Assembly (NCBI GenBank): GCA_024229935.1
Contig: JAAERX010000027.1
Span: forward strand, 62,001-126,000
Origin: Gammaproteobacteria bacterium
GTDB lineage: Bacteria > Pseudomonadota > Gammaproteobacteria > Steroidobacterales > GCA-2729495
Direction: 5' to 3'
DNA length: 64,000 nt
A program made the translations under genes and the position numbers. Positions 48,200 to 64,000 of this stretch are shown here, piece after piece (positions within the stretch are counted from its first letter, which is position 1; each line of letters opens with the position of its first letter). The notes beneath the pieces were generated by a model. The model made no database searches. It worked only from the letters and a program-made list of their open reading frames with translations, and had not been told where the DNA came from.

Positions 48200-48691
48200 T
48201 CAGTCAGATAAGCCTATTATGGTTCTTTCAACACCATGCACGAGCACAAGCACAATAAGCAACCAGGCCATCATGCCATGCATATCCATAAACACAGCAT
48301 GCAGGCGCTCATTGGCATCAGCAAGTGCTGAAATATTAATAAAACCAAATGCACGGACCTCATAATCAATAAATGCGGCATTCAATATGCCTATAACAGC
48401 CTGTATCAGTACCAGCGGGTAGAAAACCCATTGCAAAATCATAGACGGTCTTTTCCACCACCCCGGCGGTACATAGAGTTTATGCGCTCTGCGCCACCAC
48501 CAACGGTACAACATCAGGACAATTATTAAGATGCCTATCCCTGAGTGAATCATGAGATATATCAGCTTTATATTCAATTCAAACCCTCCGAATCTCCATC
48601 CGGACAGCAAATTAAAGGCTATAAAAAATCCTGCAACCCAGTGCAATACTCTGGCAACGGTGTAATTAAATTTTGTATTTGATCCAGACAT
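48200..48691 (-). CDS. Cytochrome b561-family membrane protein
   Basis: A 163-residue protein with four membrane helices and histidines typical of bacterial b561/Ni-Fe-hydrogenase b-type cytochromes: ARVLHWVAGFF, MIHSGIG, ERLHAVFMDMHG and VLVHGVE. It can bind two hemes b and pass electrons between quinol and a periplasmic partner. It lies in the minus-strand run below the Nod gene, but a large terminator at 49499 separates the two. Confidence 0.85.
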   Translation of the reverse strand: MSGSNTKFNYTVARVLHWVAGFFIAFNLLSGWRFGGFELNIKLIYLMIHSGIGILIIVLMLYRWWWRRAHKLYVPPGWWKRPSMILQWVFYPLVLIQAVIGILNAAFIDYEVRAFGFINISALADANERLHAVFMDMHGMMAWLLIVLVLVHGVERTIIGLSD

Positions 48692-48760: not shown

Positions 48761-49384
48761 CTACTCGGGATTTGGAGTCTGCCCCGCAAATTCCACAGCC
48801 TCAAGCATGCCAACACCTATACTAATATTTTCCCTTACTGCTCCCTCTGTCCCGACACGTACTCGATTGGCACCAATAATACCGCCCTCAAATGCTCCAC
48901 CAGTATACGTTGAGGTGATTTTCTCATGCATCAAAGTTGTGTTATCTACCGTACGGTAAAGTGTCCACATAACATCCATAGTGACAGTCATACTTATACT
49001 GAATGAGGGTGCATCAACCTTAATAACCCTGATTTTTAGTAAATATGGAGTGTTACTACTAAGCTCAGTGCTGGGAAAAGCGCCCTTGGCACGAAGCATG
49101 GGCACTATGAGCTCCACCTTCTTAGAGTCATCAATCCCAGAGAAGATGCCACTTTCGATAATCGCTTCTGCAGCAGCCTCAGTAAAGTAATCTGTATTTA
49201 TACCGCTGGATGCACCACTGACAACCAGACCAAGTGGGCCAGGTTTCATCTCTTCAGTTAGTGAGAGGTTATCTGAAGCCTTAGCATCTGTAACCTCCAA
49301 AGCCTCAGATGCCATCACTACAGAGCAGAATGCCAATATACTGCCTGCAATAATGCTCAACATTAAACGCTGTTTCATAGCCAT
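48761..49384 (-). CDS. Secreted protein of unknown function
   Basis: A 207-residue protein with a signal peptide (LMLSIIAGSILAFCSVVMAS). The mature part is beta-rich with a glycine-rich stretch (TGGAFEGGIIGA) that could insert in or coat a membrane. No family recognised; it loosely resembles small envelope lipoproteins but has no lipobox. ATG 49384 is chosen because GGAG lies seven bases upstream; the frame is open further but without a ribosome site. Confidence 0.65.
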   Translation of the reverse strand: MAMKQRLMLSIIAGSILAFCSVVMASEALEVTDAKASDNLSLTEEMKPGPLGLVVSGASSGINTDYFTEAAAEAIIESGIFSGIDDSKKVELIVPMLRAKGAFPSTELSSNTPYLLKIRVIKVDAPSFSISMTVTMDVMWTLYRTVDNTTLMHEKITSTYTGGAFEGGIIGANRVRVGTEGAVRENISIGVGMLEAVEFAGQTPNPE

Positions 49385-49498
49385 TTCAGATCTCCTCAGA
49401 AAGCTTTGTATCATTTTTTCCCTGCACCGGTCATCCGTGTTTAGCACCCGGACATCCGTGATTAACACAATGTATGGCAATGATTCAGACATAAAGAA

Positions 49499-49560
49499 GC
49501 GGGCTCTGCGGAGGGTCATTCAACTCAGTTGAACAAACCCCTACAGAGCCCGCCGTTTTT
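49499..49560 (-). terminator. Large terminator/cruciform below the Nod gene
   Basis: A 10-bp perfect outer stem GCGGGCTCTG (49499-49508) / CAGAGCCCGC (49544-49553) encloses an inner pair AGGGT/ACCCCT and a central TTCAAC/GTTGAA hairpin. T-runs flank it. It probably ends the Nod transcript. Confidence 0.85.
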
Positions 49561-49597: not shown

Positions 49598-51967
49598 TTA
49601 ACCTCCCAGAGAAGGGTCTTTCTGATGCTGCCAGTCATTCTCATAGACAGTCCATTCACCCTCTTCAACCTCTTCTTCCTTACGACGAAGCTTGGTGCCT
49701 CGAGAAAGGATGAACCACATCATAGGTAGCAAGCCACCCCAGATGAATACGGCGCCACCGATGATACGGCAGGATGTCAAGAATGCGAACACCGGACCCT
49801 CTACAATTTCTGCAGAACGGGCATACCAGGTACCTTCTGTGTAAGCGATCCAAGTCTGATACAACCCAACTGGGAACAGATCAAGGAACATCATCAGTAT
49901 CAAACCAATATTCAAAGACCAGAATGATGTGCGAACCAGTTTTGGATTCCAGGCAGATTTATGGAATAAATGCTGACAGCAGAACAGCATTCCGCCCAGC
50001 GCGATATTACCTTTCACACCAAACATAGCTGCATGAGCGTGGTTACCCGTTAGATAAGTTGCATGCTCATAGTAGTTAACGATAGGCAGGTTAACTACCG
50101 AGCCAAGTACACCAGCTCCAAAAATATTCCAGAAGTTAACGCCCAGGATAAACAACCAGACACCTTCCATAACAATAGTCTGTTTACCTTCAACCACTTT
50201 CTGGTTAGCCAGTGCACCTTCCTGACGCATTTGCCATGCATCAAGAGTAAGCAGGAGTAATGGCAATACCTGAAGAGTTGAGAACACACTACCAAGGGCA
50301 ATGATGCCTGTAGGTTTAGCTATCCAGTAGAAGTTATGAGAGATACCAATCGTTGCAGTAATCAGGAAGAGCATCACAGCAAGGAAGATAACTCGTTCTG
50401 CCATCATCCGGGTGATAAGACCCATCTGAACCAGCATGTAGCCGACGATGACGGTTGTGAATACCTCAAAGGTAACCTCAACCCACATATGTACGACCAT
50501 CCAACGCCAGTAATCAGAGATAGCAAAGTTCATTTCTGGTTGAACTAAAAGACCAAAGAACAGGAACATAACCATGATGCCACTGCCATAAAGCAGCCAT
50601 GATGGAACAGACCAGATATTTCTTCGAGTCAGCCAAGGCTTAACAGCACGGTAGATAATAAAGATCCAGAGGGCAAATGCAGCCAACAGGGTGAACTGGA
50701 AGAAACGACCCAGCTCCATGAATTCCCAACCCTGACTACCGAACCAATATGCCATGTTGTCGCTAAGCATACCGGTGATACCCATGTAGATACCTACGAT
50801 CGCACCAACACCGGTAACGAGACACAGGACAAACAACAGGTTAATCAGTGTCTTTTGACCGGCAGGAACCTTCGAAATCCTTGGCAGGAAGAAGATGGTA
50901 TAGCCAACCCAGCACATAAAGAACCAGAAAATCTGAAGGAGAGTATGGTAACTACGAACAACCTGGAAAGGAATAAGTTCATTCAGATTTATTCCAAACG
51001 GACGAACAAAGTCCATCGCGCCAATAACACCACCCAGAATCTGAACACCAAATACTAGAACCGCCAAAACGAAGAACTTATAAGTAGCTCTCTGAGTAGG
51101 CCGAACATATTCGTTCTCAAGGTCATAGGTGGTAAGTGACTGCCCACCTTCTGCCTCACTAGAATCGAATACATCAACTTCCTGCTCTTTCATCTGACCG
51201 TATGCATACAGAACAACCATCACGCCTACAAAAAGAGCAAAGATTGAAAACACACTCCAGAAGAATGTTGCTGCAGTAGGGCTGTTGCCAGCGTCCTTAT
51301 CACCAGGCCAGTTATGCGTATAACTGTATGTTTCACCCGGTCGATTTGCTCCAGAAACCCAACCACCCCAGTAGAAAAAAGCTGATAAAGCACGAAGGTC
51401 AGCAGGATCAGAAATAAACCCTGTTGGCTCAAATGATTCAGCATAAGTAGGGTCATTAAACATCCGTGTGTAATGGTCTGTCAGGTCAGCATAGGCTGAA
51501 ACCTGAGCATCATTAAGACGAATAACACCCGCTTCTTCATCATATCCGTTGTTATGAATTTCACGTATTACACGAACCGCAATTGCATCATGATCATGTT
51601 GGGACAGCTCTCCAGCTGAACGCCCAAGCTCACGAGCATAATGTGCACGCATGCCCAATACAGTTCTATGCAAAGCATCAGCCGTAAAATCGGGCCCACG
51701 CTCTCCGCCATCACCCCAGAAGGAGCCATAATTCATCAAACCACGGATATGGAATAGTTCCTGTCCACGTTTGATTTCTGCTCTTGAAAACACAGTTTCC
51801 CCTGTGGGGGATACATAAGTTTCCAACGGAGGAGAACCCATATAGGTTGCACCACCGAGATAAATCAACCCAGCGATACATATCGCAGAGACGATCATAA
51901 AGTGCGTTAGCCAGTTTTTCTTATTAACCAGCCATAACGCCATGTTCTGGGGACTAGAGTCACTCAT
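49598..51967 (-). CDS. nod: Putative nitric oxide dismutase (Nod, qNor-like)
   Basis: A 789-residue protein with the qNor layout: N-terminal helix, a periplasmic cytochrome-like domain without heme c (about 45-230), then about thirteen membrane helices. Ordinary qNor binds FeB with three His and a nearby Glu. Here FeB His493 and Glu497 (HMWVE) are present. The His-His pair is His544-Asn545 (SHNFYW), the active-site Glu is Gln566 (STLQVLP), and the quinol-site Asp is Gly738 (RIIGGAVF). Heme ligands His643/His645 (NHAHAAMFG) remain. These changes are those described for NO dismutase of Methylomirabilis and strain HdN1, proposed to convert 2 NO to N2 + O2. GGAG precedes ATG 51967. Confidence 0.9.
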   Translation of the reverse strand: MSDSSPQNMALWLVNKKNWLTHFMIVSAICIAGLIYLGGATYMGSPPLETYVSPTGETVFSRAEIKRGQELFHIRGLMNYGSFWGDGGERGPDFTADALHRTVLGMRAHYARELGRSAGELSQHDHDAIAVRVIREIHNNGYDEEAGVIRLNDAQVSAYADLTDHYTRMFNDPTYAESFEPTGFISDPADLRALSAFFYWGGWVSGANRPGETYSYTHNWPGDKDAGNSPTAATFFWSVFSIFALFVGVMVVLYAYGQMKEQEVDVFDSSEAEGGQSLTTYDLENEYVRPTQRATYKFFVLAVLVFGVQILGGVIGAMDFVRPFGINLNELIPFQVVRSYHTLLQIFWFFMCWVGYTIFFLPRISKVPAGQKTLINLLFVLCLVTGVGAIVGIYMGITGMLSDNMAYWFGSQGWEFMELGRFFQFTLLAAFALWIFIIYRAVKPWLTRRNIWSVPSWLLYGSGIMVMFLFFGLLVQPEMNFAISDYWRWMVVHMWVEVTFEVFTTVIVGYMLVQMGLITRMMAERVIFLAVMLFLITATIGISHNFYWIAKPTGIIALGSVFSTLQVLPLLLLTLDAWQMRQEGALANQKVVEGKQTIVMEGVWLFILGVNFWNIFGAGVLGSVVNLPIVNYYEHATYLTGNHAHAAMFGVKGNIALGGMLFCCQHLFHKSAWNPKLVRTSFWSLNIGLILMMFLDLFPVGLYQTWIAYTEGTWYARSAEIVEGPVFAFLTSCRIIGGAVFIWGGLLPMMWFILSRGTKLRRKEEEVEEGEWTVYENDWQHQKDPSLGG

Positions 51968-52573
51968 TTGTCAGCTCCTTCAATTAAACGGCTCCCAAAT
52001 GGCCGCTAAACTAAGCTTAGGTATATTAATACTGATACCAACTATAAATAACGAGTTACCCACAGCACTGGCACCAGCCATATGACGAACATTTACTACT
52101 TACTGATACTTATTTCAGAATGGAAAAATAAGTTATTTCAAGCAGCTGTGATATAAGTATTAGCGCGTAATGGCGATTTATTAGTACCTAGAAGTAAGTA
52201 CAAGTACCTACATTAACTTATGGTCTGAGCACCTCCTTCCCCTCTTGTGAAGCAGTATGCTGCGAAGCTCACCTTTGATTTCACCTCTCTCAGCTTATAT
52301 TTCTCCTGACAGTAGATATTTAAATCTGCCATAAGCACGCAAGACAGCAATTTTGTGGCATTTCATAAAGCCAAATATTTTTTCCTTCCAGATATACGGC
52401 ATCTCCGCAATAGAATCATGGTCTGGGTTAGGGGTAGACTTCCCTGCTGAAAGACTCGAGGCATCATTAATGCATATCATTAGTAAATGCTGCATCACAG
52501 CTTTCACAAGCCTGTCAGATCCAGTAATGCATCAAATGCAATGCAAGCAGAAGCAATAAACTAGAGCATATAA
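51968..52573. other. Intergenic region between nod and the MORN genes
   Basis: 606 bp. It should contain the nod promoter on the minus strand. Two pairs of direct repeats are seen: TTATTTCA at 52110-52117 and 52133-52140, and AGTACCTA at 52183-52190 and 52203-52210. No FNR-type TTGAT-N4-ATCAA site was found. A short open frame on the minus strand (52295-52507) has no ribosome site and is not called. Confidence 0.45.
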
Positions 52574-53461
52574 ATGGCGACTAACCCCTTTTCATGGTTT
52601 ACCTCTCTCTTTACAAAGGCTAAAGCTGATGGCCCATATGAGGTATTTCATAAAAACGGTCAACTAAAATGTCAGGGTACTTATAAAGACGGTCATAAAG
52701 ATGGCCCTCACGAGTCATACTCCAAAAAAGGCCATTTAGAATCCAAAGGCAACTATAAGGACAACAAAAAAGAGGGCTTATGGGAAAGTTATTCTGCAAC
52801 AGGTGACGTATTGTTCTCAGGCAGCTATATATCTGGACAACCTGATGGTACCCACAACCGATTCCATAATAATGGCCAGTTACGAGACAAGCAGTCCTAT
52901 ATAAACGGCAAAAATGAAGGACTCTGGGAACTCTTTTATGCAAATGGCCAATTAAAATCCAGGGGTGACTATAAAAACGGTAAACGAGAAGGTTCCTTTG
53001 AGATTTACTACAACAATGGTCAGCTAAGATCTAAAGGTAGTCATCATAATGATAAACGAGATGCTCTTTATGAGTCATACTTTGAAAATGGTCAGCTAGA
53101 ATCTACAGGTAGCTACAAGGACGGCAATAAAGATGGGCCATGGAAAGAATTTTATGAATATGGTCAGTTAAAATTTTCAGGGTCCTATATAGATGGGAAA
53201 CAAGATGGTTTTTGGGAAATCTTACATGAGAACGGTCAGCTGAAATCTGCTGGAAGCTATAGGAATGATAAGCAGGAAGGTCCCTTTGAGGAATTCTCTG
53301 AGAGCGGTCAATTATTGGTTAAAGAGCATTATGAAAACGGTCAGAAGCATGGACCATATGAGTCTTATGAAGACAATGGTCAATTGAAGTCCAGAGGAAG
53401 CTTTAAGTACGGCAGACTCGATGGGTCATTTGAACTATATAAAGATGGAGTCCTTCAATAG
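52574..53461 (+). CDS. MORN-repeat protein (11 repeats)
   Basis: A 295-residue protein made almost wholly of 24-residue MORN-variant (PF07661-type) repeats: eleven full copies from about residue 18 plus a partial twelfth. The consensus is DGPWExYxxNGQLKSxGSYKDGK. There is no signal peptide or enzyme motif. Such YwqK-like proteins form elongated beta sheets; some are immunity partners of toxins, most are of unknown role. A second MORN gene starts 47 bp downstream, so the pair is probably one transcript. Confidence 0.85.
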   Translation: MATNPFSWFTSLFTKAKADGPYEVFHKNGQLKCQGTYKDGHKDGPHESYSKKGHLESKGNYKDNKKEGLWESYSATGDVLFSGSYISGQPDGTHNRFHNNGQLRDKQSYINGKNEGLWELFYANGQLKSRGDYKNGKREGSFEIYYNNGQLRSKGSHHNDKRDALYESYFENGQLESTGSYKDGNKDGPWKEFYEYGQLKFSGSYIDGKQDGFWEILHENGQLKSAGSYRNDKQEGPFEEFSESGQLLVKEHYENGQKHGPYESYEDNGQLKSRGSFKYGRLDGSFELYKDGVLQ

Positions 53462-53508: not shown

Positions 53509-54120
53509 ATGAATTCTAAATCTCGTTTTTGGTACAAAATTATAAGTCTGCTCCCAGACGGCCCCTGGATGTGGGGTCTAAAAGCCAGACAGCTGGACTC
53601 AAAAGGCGGCTATAAGGATGGAAAACAGGAAGGCCCCTGGGAAATGTACTACGAAAGTGGCCAGATTGAATTTAAGGGCCACTATAAGTCCGGAAGGCGC
53701 CACGGTCCTTGGGAACTGTTCTATGAAAATGGGCAGTTAAGAGTTAAAGGGAAATCCAAGAATGGCAGACCTGATGGCTTTTTTGAAAAGTATTATGAGA
53801 ATGGCCAGCTAGAAGAAAGGTACAGCTGTACAAACGGGGAACAATTTGGCTCATTTGAAAAATTTCATGAAAACGGCAGATTAAAAGAGAAGGGATACTA
53901 TAACAATGGTTATAAAGACGGCCTTCTGGAAGCCTACCATGAGAACGGCCAGCTAAATAAAAAAGGACATTACTTGGGCGGTGGTATGGATGGTCCCTGG
54001 GAGTACTACTATGATAATGGCCAGCTGGGAAAAAGAGAAAACTATAAAGACGGTATGCTTGATGGCCTTTGGGAATATTTTGATGAAGACGGCCAGCTAA
54101 AAGAACGACGAAACTACTAA
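53509..54120 (+). CDS. MORN-repeat protein (about 8 repeats)
   Basis: A 203-residue companion of the gene upstream, with about eight 24-residue repeats of the same type (EGPWEMYYESGQIEFKGHY as one copy) after a short basic, slightly hydrophobic N-terminus (KIISLLPDGPWMWGLK). It is more diverged than the first protein, so the duplication is not recent. No toxin domain is seen in either protein or next to them. Confidence 0.85.
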   Translation: MNSKSRFWYKIISLLPDGPWMWGLKARQLDSKGGYKDGKQEGPWEMYYESGQIEFKGHYKSGRRHGPWELFYENGQLRVKGKSKNGRPDGFFEKYYENGQLEERYSCTNGEQFGSFEKFHENGRLKEKGYYNNGYKDGLLEAYHENGQLNKKGHYLGGGMDGPWEYYYDNGQLGKRENYKDGMLDGLWEYFDEDGQLKERRNY

Positions 54121-54558: not shown

Positions 54559-54882
54559 CTAGCGCTCTAACAGCTTCAGTTTATCTGGCACGCCATCCCA
54601 TTCCTCTGCATCTGGTGGTGATGATTGTTTTTCTGAAATATTAGGCCAAATAGCAGCCAGCTCTTCATTTAGCTTGATAAACCCACGCTGTCCCTCAGGA
54701 ACCTGCTTATAGTCCATAATCGCGTCCACTGGGCATGCTGGCCTGCAAAGCGCACAGTCTATGCACTCACTTCCATCGATCACTAAAAAATTGGGCCCTT
54801 CATAAAAAGCATCAACCGGACAGACATCTGCACAATTTGTATGCTTGCAGTTTATGCAATTTTCTGTAACAACAAATGGCAT
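54559..54882 (-). CDS. fdxA: 7Fe ferredoxin FdxA
   Basis: A 107-residue ferredoxin with one [3Fe-4S] and one [4Fe-4S] cluster, formed by Cys9, 12, 17, 21, 40, 43, 46 and 50 in the pattern CxxCxxxxCxxxCP...CxxCxxCxxxCP. The C-terminal helix ([17 protein letters not shown]) is typical of the proteobacterial FdxA type. It is a cytoplasmic low-potential electron carrier. It lies between MORN genes and the nirS region. Confidence 0.95.
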
Positions 54883-57077: not shown

Positions 57078-59591
<2,514 letters not shown>

Positions 59592-60712: not shown

Positions 60713-61009
60713 CTAAGATTTGTCTTCTGGTTGGCGCTGTTTCATATCTATTGCATCAACCGGGCAAATGCCAAGGCAATCACCACAACCAGTACATTCA
60801 TCTGCAACAATTACAGGCACAGGCAACTGACCTTCTGCTTGTATAAAACGTATGGCATTTAGCTCACATAAATTGCCACATATTCGGCAGGACTCCCCAC
60901 GAATAGGCAAGCAGGTGCGACCAATTTTGGCAATAACCTCAGATGATGGGGGTAAGGGCGCTTCTTGCCAGCGACCTCTTAGAAATTGTGCACGTGTTAT
61001 CTTTGCCAT
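60713..61009 (-). CDS. NapF-like ferredoxin
   Basis: A 98-residue iron-sulfur protein beginning MAKITRAQFLRGRW, the usual NapF opening. It has one full 4Fe-4S motif, CTGCGDCLGICP, and a second cysteine group, CLPIRGESCRICGNLC, that can hold another cluster. NapF is longer (three or four clusters), so this is a short relative. NapF-type proteins help mature or feed periplasmic molybdoenzymes. It follows the pentaheme cytochrome, supporting a role with the molybdoenzyme upstream. Confidence 0.82.
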   Translation of the reverse strand: MAKITRAQFLRGRWQEAPLPPSSEVIAKIGRTCLPIRGESCRICGNLCELNAIRFIQAEGQLPVPVIVADECTGCGDCLGICPVDAIDMKQRQPEDKS

Positions 61010-61111
61010 GATCAGAGACCCTAGCACACTCCCTGGAGCACAGCCCATGGTTTGCTAATATTCAAATATCTTTAGCTGCACCCATAGAGTAAAAATATAC
61101 GTTTTTTCTAC

Positions 61112-61828
61112 TTATCTCTTTGCAGACTCTTCGCTTACAACCTTATCCTTTACAACAGCTGTTGAGTCCGGCTCCTTCCATTTTACTTCTTCATGAACGA
61201 GGTTGTAATGGCACTGGATACAGGTCTTTTCTGTGGCCTGATGCCGCTTGATCTTATTAAACCACTTGCTCTCAGTCTTATGACAAACCTTGCATTTGGC
61301 ACTGTTATCTTCAAGCATTTGACCACGTACTTTATGTGCAAGTACCGGACGCAATTCTTCCCATTCCGGAATGTCACGCAGACCACTGGAGATCACATGG
61401 AAAGGGCTCTCACCAAATGTGCCTTTATTAATATAAAAGAACTTCCAGACCAGAAACTCCTTGACACTGTGAGGGTTGTGACAGCCTAAACACCCGGCTT
61501 TAATCCCCTGCTCATTATCATAATGAGCAGATTCTCGGTACTCCTCATAGGGGTAGGCATGACACTCAGCACAACCTACCGTCATATTAAAGTGCCCCAA
61601 ATCAATTTCTCTATTGGGCCTGAAGTCTTCTATGGATTCACTTAATGGGCTAGTCTGTTTGTACTCTTCATACTCAACAAATACCTCATGACAGGTAGTA
61701 CAGACATTTGCCCGGGTAAAGCGAGTATGGCTCCAGCTCAGAATACCAATGGCGAGAAGCAGACCAAATACCACAACAATGGTTATAACTCGCCCTATTG
61801 TTGATTGAAGGAACTTTGGAAATTTCAA
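61112..61828 (-). CDS. NapC/NirT-type pentaheme cytochrome c
   Basis: A 238-residue membrane-anchored cytochrome with an N-terminal helix (about 12-32) and five heme sites: CTTCH (43), CAECH (86), CLGCH (113), CKVCH (179) and CIQCH (203). NapC/NrfH proteins normally have four. They oxidise membrane quinol and pass electrons to periplasmic reductases. The start is TTG 61828, eight bases after GGAGG. It lies 40 bp after the molybdopterin oxidoreductase, its likely electron acceptor. Confidence 0.9.
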   Translation of the reverse strand: MKFPKFLQSTIGRVITIVVVFGLLLAIGILSWSHTRFTRANVCTTCHEVFVEYEEYKQTSPLSESIEDFRPNREIDLGHFNMTVGCAECHAYPYEEYRESAHYDNEQGIKAGCLGCHNPHSVKEFLVWKFFYINKGTFGESPFHVISSGLRDIPEWEELRPVLAHKVRGQMLEDNSAKCKVCHKTESKWFNKIKRHQATEKTCIQCHYNLVHEEVKWKEPDSTAVVKDKVVSEESAKR

Positions 61829-61868
61829 TCTACTATTCCTCCACTATACTGCGGCTTGTTATCCATGC

Positions 61869-64000
61869 TTATCCCTGTGAATCCTTATAAACAGCAAAGT
61901 GCTTGGTATTATCAACTTCAATATCACCATACTTATCGCCTGGTTCAGCTCTGGAAAGCGTTACCACTGAGTCATTCCATATCTGCGCACCCGTTTCCGG
62001 GTCTATAGCTACCGGCATAATGTCATTAGGGTTAACTCCGTTATCCCGCCACCAGAGGTTATGCTCAATATCCGGGTCCTCTTGCTCATGACGGGCATAA
62101 GAAGGCGCGTGTGCATGTGGATTAGCCTGAGCCACACGACCATAAGCAGTACGTCCCACTGAAGTACTCATGCCGAGTGTCTGGGGATGAATGCCTGAGG
62201 TCAGCCATGCCTTGGTAACCATATAACCAGCTGCGGTGGTCACTCGCACCAGATCGGCATCACCAATTTCAAGCCTTAATGCCGTCTCCCTGTTAACCCA
62301 AAGTGGATTGGCATGCCACAGTTCCGACAGATATTTTAGATTTGAGGTCATAGAAAGAGAGTGATTCGCAACCTTGAAAGTGGTCAGCACAAACTGATTA
62401 GATTGAAGGTCTGCATGTTTTGGATTTTCACTCCAGGCAGGCTTACGTAGTTCAATTTTTCCTGATGGAGTGGGAAAACCAGCTGAGCGATAGGTATTGT
62501 ATTCGGCCTCAGCTAATACACCCTTTTTAACAATCTGTCGTGTTGCAGGATCTATTTTTCCATACGATGGCCATACGCCCTTAGATTTTAATTTCTTATA
62601 GGTTTTCTTCTCCGTTCCTGATGTCGCCTTAACTACCTGCTTGGTCCATTCTTCGACATCAGCAAATTCCCAGTAAGATCGCATGCCACGACTGCCATCA
62701 GGGTCGATGGTCTCAATCACCTGCTTTAGCGTCATCCGCACATCCTGGGCCTGTCCCCGCGGTGAAACTTTTGGGTAGCTCATGCCAATCCATGGCCAAA
62801 GTGCCGTTGGGCTACTGGCTACTTCATGACGCTCTACATCAACTACATCCGGAAGGATAATATCAGCCAGCTCTGCTGTCTCACTCATAAATGGACTAAA
62901 ATCAACAAGATAAGGAATCATCTCTTCATCCTGTAAAACCTCCCGCCAGACGCTTGCCGCCGGAGATGAGTAACCAGGATTACTCATATGATTGATGAGT
63001 AAGGCAACCTGACGGGAGCCATCCATTACTTCAAAGGGAAACGTCGGGTTCAACTGCTTTGACTGACTACCTGCCAACTTTGGTATTGGCTCAGGTGCAG
63101 CAACATCAAACTGGCGTGGCAGACAATAACCACCCTCGTTATCAATATTACCTGTAATAACCGCAAGGGTCAGACAGGCCATCTCCGCATTAATTCCATT
63201 TTGATGCCAGCTAAGACCATTTTGACTCATCACCGTTGCCGGTTTTGTCTTGGCAAATTCAACAGCTATCTTCTTAATAGTTTTGACTGGCACCCCACTG
63301 GCTTTCTCAGCTATTTCTGGGGTAAATTTTTCTAACTCTGCAGCCAGCTTCTTACTTGAATAGTTAGTCCAGGTATTAATAAATTTCTCATCCATTAATC
63401 CCTTCTGCATGATGATATTGGCCATCGCCAATGCAACGATGCCATCACTGCCTGGAAATACAGGAATCCATTCATCACTTCTACCAGCGGTATTGGACAT
63501 GCGAACATCGAATGTCACCAGCTTCAAGCGACTATTAACAACACCATCAGTCAACCTCTGTGCCAAAGGCGGAGCAGTTTCCATGATGTTGGCACCAAAA
63601 TTCAGAATATATTTAGTATGTTCAAGGTCGGGGAGCATACTTGTAAAACCAACAGCCTCTTCAAGTGCGATCTGTTTTGGCGCTGTGCCTATAGAAGGCA
63701 GCCGACTACGAATAACTGACTGGGAGCCTATAGTATCCATGAACCGGACACTCCCCCCCTCCTTGAAACCACCCTCGTTGAGGACAATGCTATTAGGGTC
63801 ATCTAATGCTTCCAACACCTTGGCTGAAAGTTCTGCTATAGCTTCTTCCCAACTGATTTCCTGCCATTGTCCGGCACCTCGCTCACCTACACGTTTTAGA
63901 GGAGCCAGTATCCTGTCCGGGTCAGAGGCGCCAAAGAAAGAGGCAAGACCCTTGCTGCAAAATTTACCGCGGGTGGCAATATGGTCCGGGTTACCCTCGG
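61869..64000 (-). CDS. Molybdopterin oxidoreductase, DMSO-reductase family (5' partial)
   Basis: The C-terminal 710 or so residues; the frame is open to the window edge, so the N-terminus with the Fe-S and signal regions is outside. Visible are RGKFCSKGLASFF near the edge (last Fe-S Cys) and the bis-MGD site blocks (VTFDVRMSNTAGRSDEWIPV). The C-terminal cofactor domain reads LSELWHANPLWVNRETA. It looks closest in style to polysulfide/thiosulfate/tetrathionate-type reductases, but the substrate cannot be fixed; nitrate is not excluded. With the pentaheme cytochrome and NapF-like ferredoxin it forms a periplasmic respiratory operon. Confidence 0.88.
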   Translation of the reverse strand, partial: EGNPDHIATRGKFCSKGLASFFGASDPDRILAPLKRVGERGAGQWQEISWEEAIAELSAKVLEALDDPNSIVLNEGGFKEGGSVRFMDTIGSQSVIRSRLPSIGTAPKQIALEEAVGFTSMLPDLEHTKYILNFGANIMETAPPLAQRLTDGVVNSRLKLVTFDVRMSNTAGRSDEWIPVFPGSDGIVALAMANIIMQKGLMDEKFINTWTNYSSKKLAAELEKFTPEIAEKASGVPVKTIKKIAVEFAKTKPATVMSQNGLSWHQNGINAEMACLTLAVITGNIDNEGGYCLPRQFDVAAPEPIPKLAGSQSKQLNPTFPFEVMDGSRQVALLINHMSNPGYSSPAASVWREVLQDEEMIPYLVDFSPFMSETAELADIILPDVVDVERHEVASSPTALWPWIGMSYPKVSPRGQAQDVRMTLKQVIETIDPDGSRGMRSYWEFADVEEWTKQVVKATSGTEKKTYKKLKSKGVWPSYGKIDPATRQIVKKGVLAEAEYNTYRSAGFPTPSGKIELRKPAWSENPKHADLQSNQFVLTTFKVANHSLSMTSNLKYLSELWHANPLWVNRETALRLEIGDADLVRVTTAAGYMVTKAWLTSGIHPQTLGMSTSVGRTAYGRVAQANPHAHAPSYARHEQEDPDIEHNLWWRDNGVNPNDIMPVAIDPETGAQIWNDSVVTLSRAEPGDKYGDIEVDNTKHFAVYKDSQG

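Follow-up and report, generated by a model that had tools for sequence, protein, structure and literature searches.

The open reading frame at 49598-51967 (minus strand) of the 64-kb window, by which we mean the whole stretch of DNA analysed here, is, as judged from its sequence, a genuine new member of the known nitric oxide dismutase (Nod) family and not a new kind of enzyme. We consider it most likely, at a probability of roughly 65%, that its product acts as a dismutase converting 2 NO to N2 and O2, with NO coming from NirS encoded on the same contig and O2 passing to haem-copper oxidases. The gene lies in a genome (G000) of 2.71 Mb in 189 contigs that is 99.5% complete. The features on which the analysis draws are as follows.

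49598..51967, minus strand: nod, putative NO dismutase of 789 residues (Pfam, residues, tree, model against 3ayf)
50333..50338, minus strand: His544-Asn545, the FeB histidine kept and the adjacent FeB histidine replaced by Asn (alignment and codons)
50270..50272, minus strand: Gln566, replacing the catalytic Glu581 of quinol NO reductase, qNor (alignment and codons)
49754..49756, minus strand: Gly738, replacing the quinol-site Asp746 (alignment and codons)
51002..51016, minus strand: Met318 to Arg322, replacing the quinol-site His328 and Glu332 (alignment and codons)
52574..53461, plus strand: MORN1, MORN_2 repeat protein of 295 residues, divergent from nod (Pfam, linkage, model)
53509..54120, plus strand: MORN2, MORN_2 repeat protein of 203 residues (Pfam, linkage)
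54559..54882, minus strand: ferredoxin gene (Fer4, DUF3470), the second copy in the genome (Pfam, tree; the other copy is on C76)
57078..59162, minus strand: cytochrome cd1 (NirS-type) with two c-type haem motifs, a possible NO source (Pfam, motifs)
48761..49519, minus strand: protein of unknown family directly downstream of nod (no Pfam match)

The nod frame is open from its ATG to its stop codon without internal stops, and Pfam places a NorB_cytochrome_c-like domain at residues 50-221 and COX1 at 294-739. Among solved structures the closest in sequence is Geobacillus qNor (3ayf; phmmer E 2.2e-128), to which residues were matched by MAFFT and whose numbering is given first here. His508, Glu512, His559, His651 and His653 are kept as His493, Glu497, His544 (CAT, 50336-50338), His643 (CAC, 50039-50041) and His645 (CAT, 50033-50035). 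At the FeB site, two of the histidines, His508 and His559, are thus retained, and the third, His560, has become Asn545 (AAC, 50333-50335). The catalytic Glu581 is replaced by Gln566 (CAG), and in the quinol site His328 has become Met318, Glu332 has become Arg322, Phe336 faces a gap and Asp746 has become Gly738 (GGC). The protein therefore has neither the three FeB histidines with catalytic Glu nor the His328/Glu332/Asp746 quinol site that mark a qNor; it has the marks of a Nod, namely Asn for the FeB histidine, Gln for Glu and loss of the quinol residues. Changes of these kinds were given for putative Nods by Ettwig et al. 2012 (PMC3413370). The preliminary description of this gene had read it as a qNor-like gene carrying the Nod-defining changes, with HH turned to HN, Glu to Gln566, the quinol-site Asp to Gly738 and the haem ligands His643 and His645 intact, and the residues it named stand where it placed them, to the codon. 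Because the phmmer alignment to 3ayf has no gaps at the HN, Gln and Gly738 columns, the lost qNor residues are not displaced there, and neither phmmer nor MAFFT found the FeB His, the Glu or the quinol Asp at shifted positions.

An AlphaFold2 model of the protein (pLDDT 81.4, pTM 0.85) superposes on 3ayf with a TM-score of 0.87. By the NG86 method, comparison with the relatives at loci L029 and L031 gave dN 0.09 and 0.11 against dS 1.37 and 1.91, corresponding to dN/dS of about 0.06-0.07 in these two of five relatives, dS being without a value for L030, L034 and L032. These rates indicate that the sequence is under purifying selection, and a pseudogene is ruled out by the open frame together with the low dN/dS in the two pairs with computable dS.

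Relatives were collected by scanning named genome contigs with six search peptides, and the best 80 of 95 loci (L numbers) were kept. The alignment and tree comprised 93 rows of stop-to-stop frames, 82 on the Nod side and 11 qNors (two from the PDB, nine from the same bacterial family). The residue alignment excluded L001-L016, L019, L027 and L028 (nod itself, duplicates of named loci, and fragments) as well as frames shorter than 700 aa, and L052 was omitted from alignment A1. HN and Gln occur in 82/82 Nod-side rows, an HN count that is partly selected because one of the six search peptides contained HN, whereas HH and Glu occur in 11/11 qNor rows. Asp746 is changed in 81 of the 82 Nod-side rows, with L099 as the exception, and the quinol-site His328 is retained in 12. 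His341, His493, His544, His643 and His645 are invariant in 29/29 aligned Nods, which supports dismutation.

In the 93-row tree, whose long branches meet at the qNor/Nod split, the 11 qNors separate from the Nods at SH-aLRT 100. The G000 Nod pairs with L029 and L030 (support 98) inside a group of nine rows (100), and it falls together with that of strain HdN1 in a 17-row gammaproteobacterial set at a support of 91, which lies under the tool's star. Removal of eleven diagnostic columns left the split at 100 and the nearest rows unchanged. Placement inside the qNor clade, named in the preliminary description as evidence against its proposal, was thus not obtained, since the protein lies outside all 11 qNors with or without the diagnostic columns. 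The signature residues and this position among the Nods, away from the qNors, are grounds for reading the gene as a dismutase. As side observations, L099, from a Myxococcota MAG, is an HN and Gln Nod that retains both His328 and Asp746 and is possibly an intermediate, and second Nod-like frames were seen within single loci: two full copies in L100, one cut by the locus end in L066, and a partial one (38%) in L064.

Among the systems compared, the putative Nod of HdN1 (FP929140, L062) is 66% identical to that of G000, shares HN and Gln, and has a MORN pair and ferredoxin beside its gene; it differs in its quinol-site letters (W, K, gap, I against M, R, gap, G) and in the strand of the ferredoxin gene. 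HdN1 is a cultured alkane oxidiser (PMC3413370), whereas G000 has no AlkB-family or P450 match. The Candidatus Methylomirabilis Nod (L066) is 62% identical and also carries HN and Gln, but it stands on the opposite side of the main Nod split, has no MORN match and is accompanied by the second Nod-like frame. Alphaproteobacterial Nods of low-oxygen marine waters (L037-L039) share 71-72% identity, HN, Gln and Gly738, and differ in a T at the 318 column, an Rrf2-family gene beside nod and the absence of a MORN match. With qNor 3ayf, the G000 protein has in common the fold, the haem ligands and two FeB histidines, while His560, Glu581, His328, Glu332, Phe336 and Asp746 are all absent from it.

The best 80 of 95 Nod loci span eight phyla by their tree labels (Pseudomonadota, Bacteroidota, Acidobacteriota, Planctomycetota, Myxococcota, Bdellovibrionota, Methylomirabilota and Thermodesulfobacteriota), and 66 nod genes have been reported in lake MAGs (PMC13386854). 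The earlier statement that Nod is known from few lineages is therefore outdated, and rarity is no longer a ground for interest in the family. Further nod genes are described in two Scalindua MAGs from oxygen-deficient zones (PMC10359470) and in groundwater MAGs (PMC10264387). Closer to G000, nod is patchy: in its bacterial family (f1, 40 genomes) a Nod or a piece of one occurs in 18 genomes, 13 of them at full length, with fragments in G025, G031, G033, G036 and G026, where the contig ends inside nod after residue 74. One of the five genomes of the genus carries it, and at E 1e-200 it is found in 13 of 296 genomes of the order, all 13 in f1. This pattern suggests loss or transfer.

The surroundings of nod in G000 are rich in genes of nitrite reduction. 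The cd1 gene at 57078-59162 (minus strand) encodes 694 aa, lies 5.1 kb from nod and has CxxCH motifs at residues 43 and 197. Its product shows an extra N-terminal c-type domain, and cd1 frames of about 700 aa or longer occur in many f1 genomes, some of them lacking nod. Just outside the window (L121) follow a 529-aa NirS, 49% identical to the 694-aa cd1, an Rrf2-family regulator, and a predicted NorC and NorB; the last two are named from sequence, NorB also from its COX1 match, and this NorB retains HH and FSALE. The nod contig therefore encodes two nitrite reductases of the cd1 type as well as an ordinary NorBC. This placement of nod within a nitrite-reduction region would, if it holds, be new. 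Ferredoxin-like, NapC-like, molybdopterin oxidoreductase, FeS and NrfD-like genes at 60713-64000 (minus strand) and L121:240-2010 (minus strand) adjoin the cd1 genes. Directly downstream of nod, the gene at 48761-49519 has a relative near nod in eight of the best 80 of 95 loci (L029-L036), and the nearby cytochrome b561-type gene at 48200-48691 (minus strand) has one in six of these 80, HdN1 included.

Across f1, cd1 is present in 17 of 18 nod genomes versus 6 of the 22 others (Fisher p 1.5e-5, with kinship not corrected, so that the p values in f1 are too strong); the presence sets for these tests were compiled by hand from presence searches. The corresponding counts are 9/18 versus 1/22 for qNor and 3/18 versus 1/22 for NosZ. 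Linked arrangements recur in some relatives, as NorB, NorC and Rrf2 genes lie less than 9 kb from nod in L030, a molybdopterin/NapC/NrfD group is near nod in L031, and in G015 one contig carries nod and a cd1 gene about 10 kb apart. In the flanks of the best 80 of 95 loci, however, cd1-like matches occur in only two (L046 and L059, at 22-26% identity), so a cd1 nitrite reductase adjoining nod is not general. With regard to other partners, G000 encodes two further COX1 proteins (E 1.4e-163 and 7.4e-161) that are possible O2 sinks, it has no NosZ match to TIGR04246, and searches of two families of O2-using enzymes returned neither an FA_desaturase/AlkB-family protein nor a P450. Above the TIGR04246 cut-off NosZ was absent from all 40 f1 genomes, matches at E 0.001 occurring in 27, four of them long (G009, G014, G015 and G031); NirK was likewise absent from all 40 above its family cut-off, with weaker matches in 33, that of G000 at 4.5e-8.

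A second feature of the locus is the group of genes on the other side of nod. MORN1 and MORN2 read away from nod, and the ferredoxin gene stands two genes on from the pair. Of the best 80 of 95 loci, 16 carry this MORN and ferredoxin group next to nod; they make up every named locus in the 17-row gammaproteobacterial set, that of HdN1 among them. L035 and L036 have a single MORN ORF in place of two. In the other 64 named loci no MORN match was found (phmmer E 1e-8; flanks of up to 8 kb, several contigs being shorter), which rules out MORN as a general Nod partner. At E 1e-6, 18 of the 40 f1 genomes carry a MORN1 relative, and nod and MORN are concordant in 38 of the 40 (Fisher p 3.5e-9, kinship not corrected). 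Both exceptions are cut by contig ends: in G036 nod is truncated by a contig start on the side facing MORN, and a G032 contig begins with the MORN genes, on the side facing nod. At the same threshold MORN is absent from 21 of the 22 f1 genomes lacking nod, the remaining one being G032. Fifteen of the 18 nod genomes show the two side by side; G025 and G033 have them on different contigs, broken at this point, and G036 lacks the MORN side. The counts from named loci and from f1 overlap and are not independent, because ten of the 16 loci (L029, L030, L031, L034, L042, L044, L045, L048, L051 and L054) have the same lengths as contigs of f1 genomes and so seem to be identical with them. At the level of the order, MORN matches at E 1e-15 occur in 33 of 296 genomes, 15 of them outside f1 (best 7.2e-44), so MORN is not exclusive to nod carriers.

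In a tree with long branches, a partial L032 sequence and unlinked copies sampled from G000's genus only, the 17 ferredoxins linked to nod split off (support 100/99) from seven others of that genus, which include the other copy of G000. AlphaFold2 models MORN1 confidently as a beta ribbon (pLDDT 94.1) and adds a short, low-confidence helix at the N terminus; Foldseek matched the model to protist Morn1 and junctophilins by partial superposition (TM 0.3-0.4). Trp8, within a short conserved N-terminal stretch, is invariant in 16/16 aligned MORN1 rows. Our literature search found no paper joining MORN or YwqK with NO dismutase or denitrification, and the main text of PMC13386854, which discusses nod neighbourhoods, does not name MORN, YwqK or ferredoxin; PMC6636425 gave no match to the residue terms, and PMC7618691 held nothing of use on NOD. 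The linkage thus seems unreported, and the tracking of nod by this group in the gammaproteobacterial set would be new, if it holds. Plain co-inheritance of neighbours within one clade could also produce it. The loss or absence of nod and MORN together within the family favours a link, but genomes without nod may just be missing this entire region. We tentatively put forward, as an idea that could well prove wrong, that the gammaproteobacterial Nod works in a conserved unit with the MORN pair and a dedicated ferredoxin as its obligate partners, for example as a cytoplasmic membrane-side scaffold holding Nod beside its NO source or an O2 user; linkage and fold are what this guess at a scaffold draws on.

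Taken together, these observations point to a qNor-derived membrane enzyme that retains five of six haem and metal histidines but no longer has the catalytic Glu, one of the FeB histidines or the site where quinol electrons enter. Such an enzyme would disproportionate 2 NO to N2 and O2, the NO being probably supplied by the NirS-type nitrite reductases of the contig and the O2 presumably consumed by the cell's haem-copper oxidases; the MORN proteins and ferredoxin, which belong to the nod locus in the gammaproteobacterial set, may serve it. Dismutation is favoured by the two cd1 enzymes and the association of cd1 with nod in f1, by the NorBC that already serves NO reduction, and by the lack of a NosZ match beside two candidate COX1 sinks. 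Against it stand the lack of an FA_desaturase/AlkB or P450 match as a dedicated O2 user in G000, the rarity of cd1 beside nod elsewhere, the presence of NorBC, through which Nod is not the only NO sink, and the upstream region, in which no FNR/DNR- or NsrR-like site stands out. Moreover, no Nod has been purified: according to PMC13386854, NOD has not been isolated or biochemically characterised, and results for and against dismutation are cited there. O2 formation by any Nod is unproven, and the earlier label of an oxygen-making enzyme stands as the proposed activity of the family, not as a shown one.

The alternative that survives best, though we regard it as unlikely, is a Nod-family protein that still reduces 2 NO to N2O with electrons from a non-quinol donor, for instance the linked ferredoxin or a periplasmic cytochrome. 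The qNor fold, the retained Glu497 and five of six histidines, and the linkage of a ferredoxin gene all suit such a reductase, and the authors of PMC8115048 leave reductase or dismutase activity open for a NOD-like NorB in oxygen-poor waters, a viral protein 59% identical to that of HdN1. The loss of His560 and Glu581 in 82/82 Nod-side rows and of the quinol Asp in 81/82 speaks against it, as does the NorBC that G000 already possesses.

A still less probable proposal is an NO-binding or NO-detoxifying protein of another kind, acting in sensing, storage or slow decomposition without a useful O2 yield, and here the regulatory sites are of interest. In G000 they gave no signal: FNR-like sites in the window numbered 44 against 48.7 expected by shuffling, upstream of nod the best match to FNR/DNR had 7 of 10 letters (98/100 shuffles did as well) and that to NsrR 11 of 21 (100/100), and no promoter or terminator was detected on scanning 51900-52640. 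In L042, L044, L045 and L054, FNR/DNR-like palindromes of 8-9 of 10 letters lie 106-118 bases upstream of nod, with 20, 9, 0 and 1 of 100 shuffles as good, respectively. The nods of L037-L039 each have an Rrf2-family gene 248-280 bases away, and when scored against what we take to be the NsrR consensus, L038 and L039 have NsrR-like sites of 18 and 20 of 21 letters about 140 bases upstream of nod (0/100 shuffles each), and L037 a weaker one of 15 of 21. These genes and the sites of L038 and L039 would fit a role in detoxification, as would the lack of an FA_desaturase/AlkB or P450 match in G000. A similar picture is given by PMC13386854, in which nsrR is near nod in a Steroidobacterales lineage and similar stress regulators are near some nods. 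Regulation cannot separate the two readings because dismutation also detoxifies NO, and the strict conservation of haem and metal ligands argues for catalysis. Finally, an ordinary quinol NO reductase with chance substitutions shares the fold and has 33-36% identity through the true qNors of the family, but it is ruled out by the residues, the tree placement and the far higher identity to the HdN1 and Methylomirabilis Nods.

Dismutation thus remains our preferred reading. Since nod lies in a nitrite-reduction region with NorBC present and no NosZ match, G000 offers a natural test of the fate of NO, as N2O or as N2 and O2. The MORN and ferredoxin linkage suggests specific candidate partners for an enzyme yet to be purified, and these proteins may possibly aid its production by co-expression. 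If Nod makes O2, the G000 bacterium could respire internally made oxygen without light.
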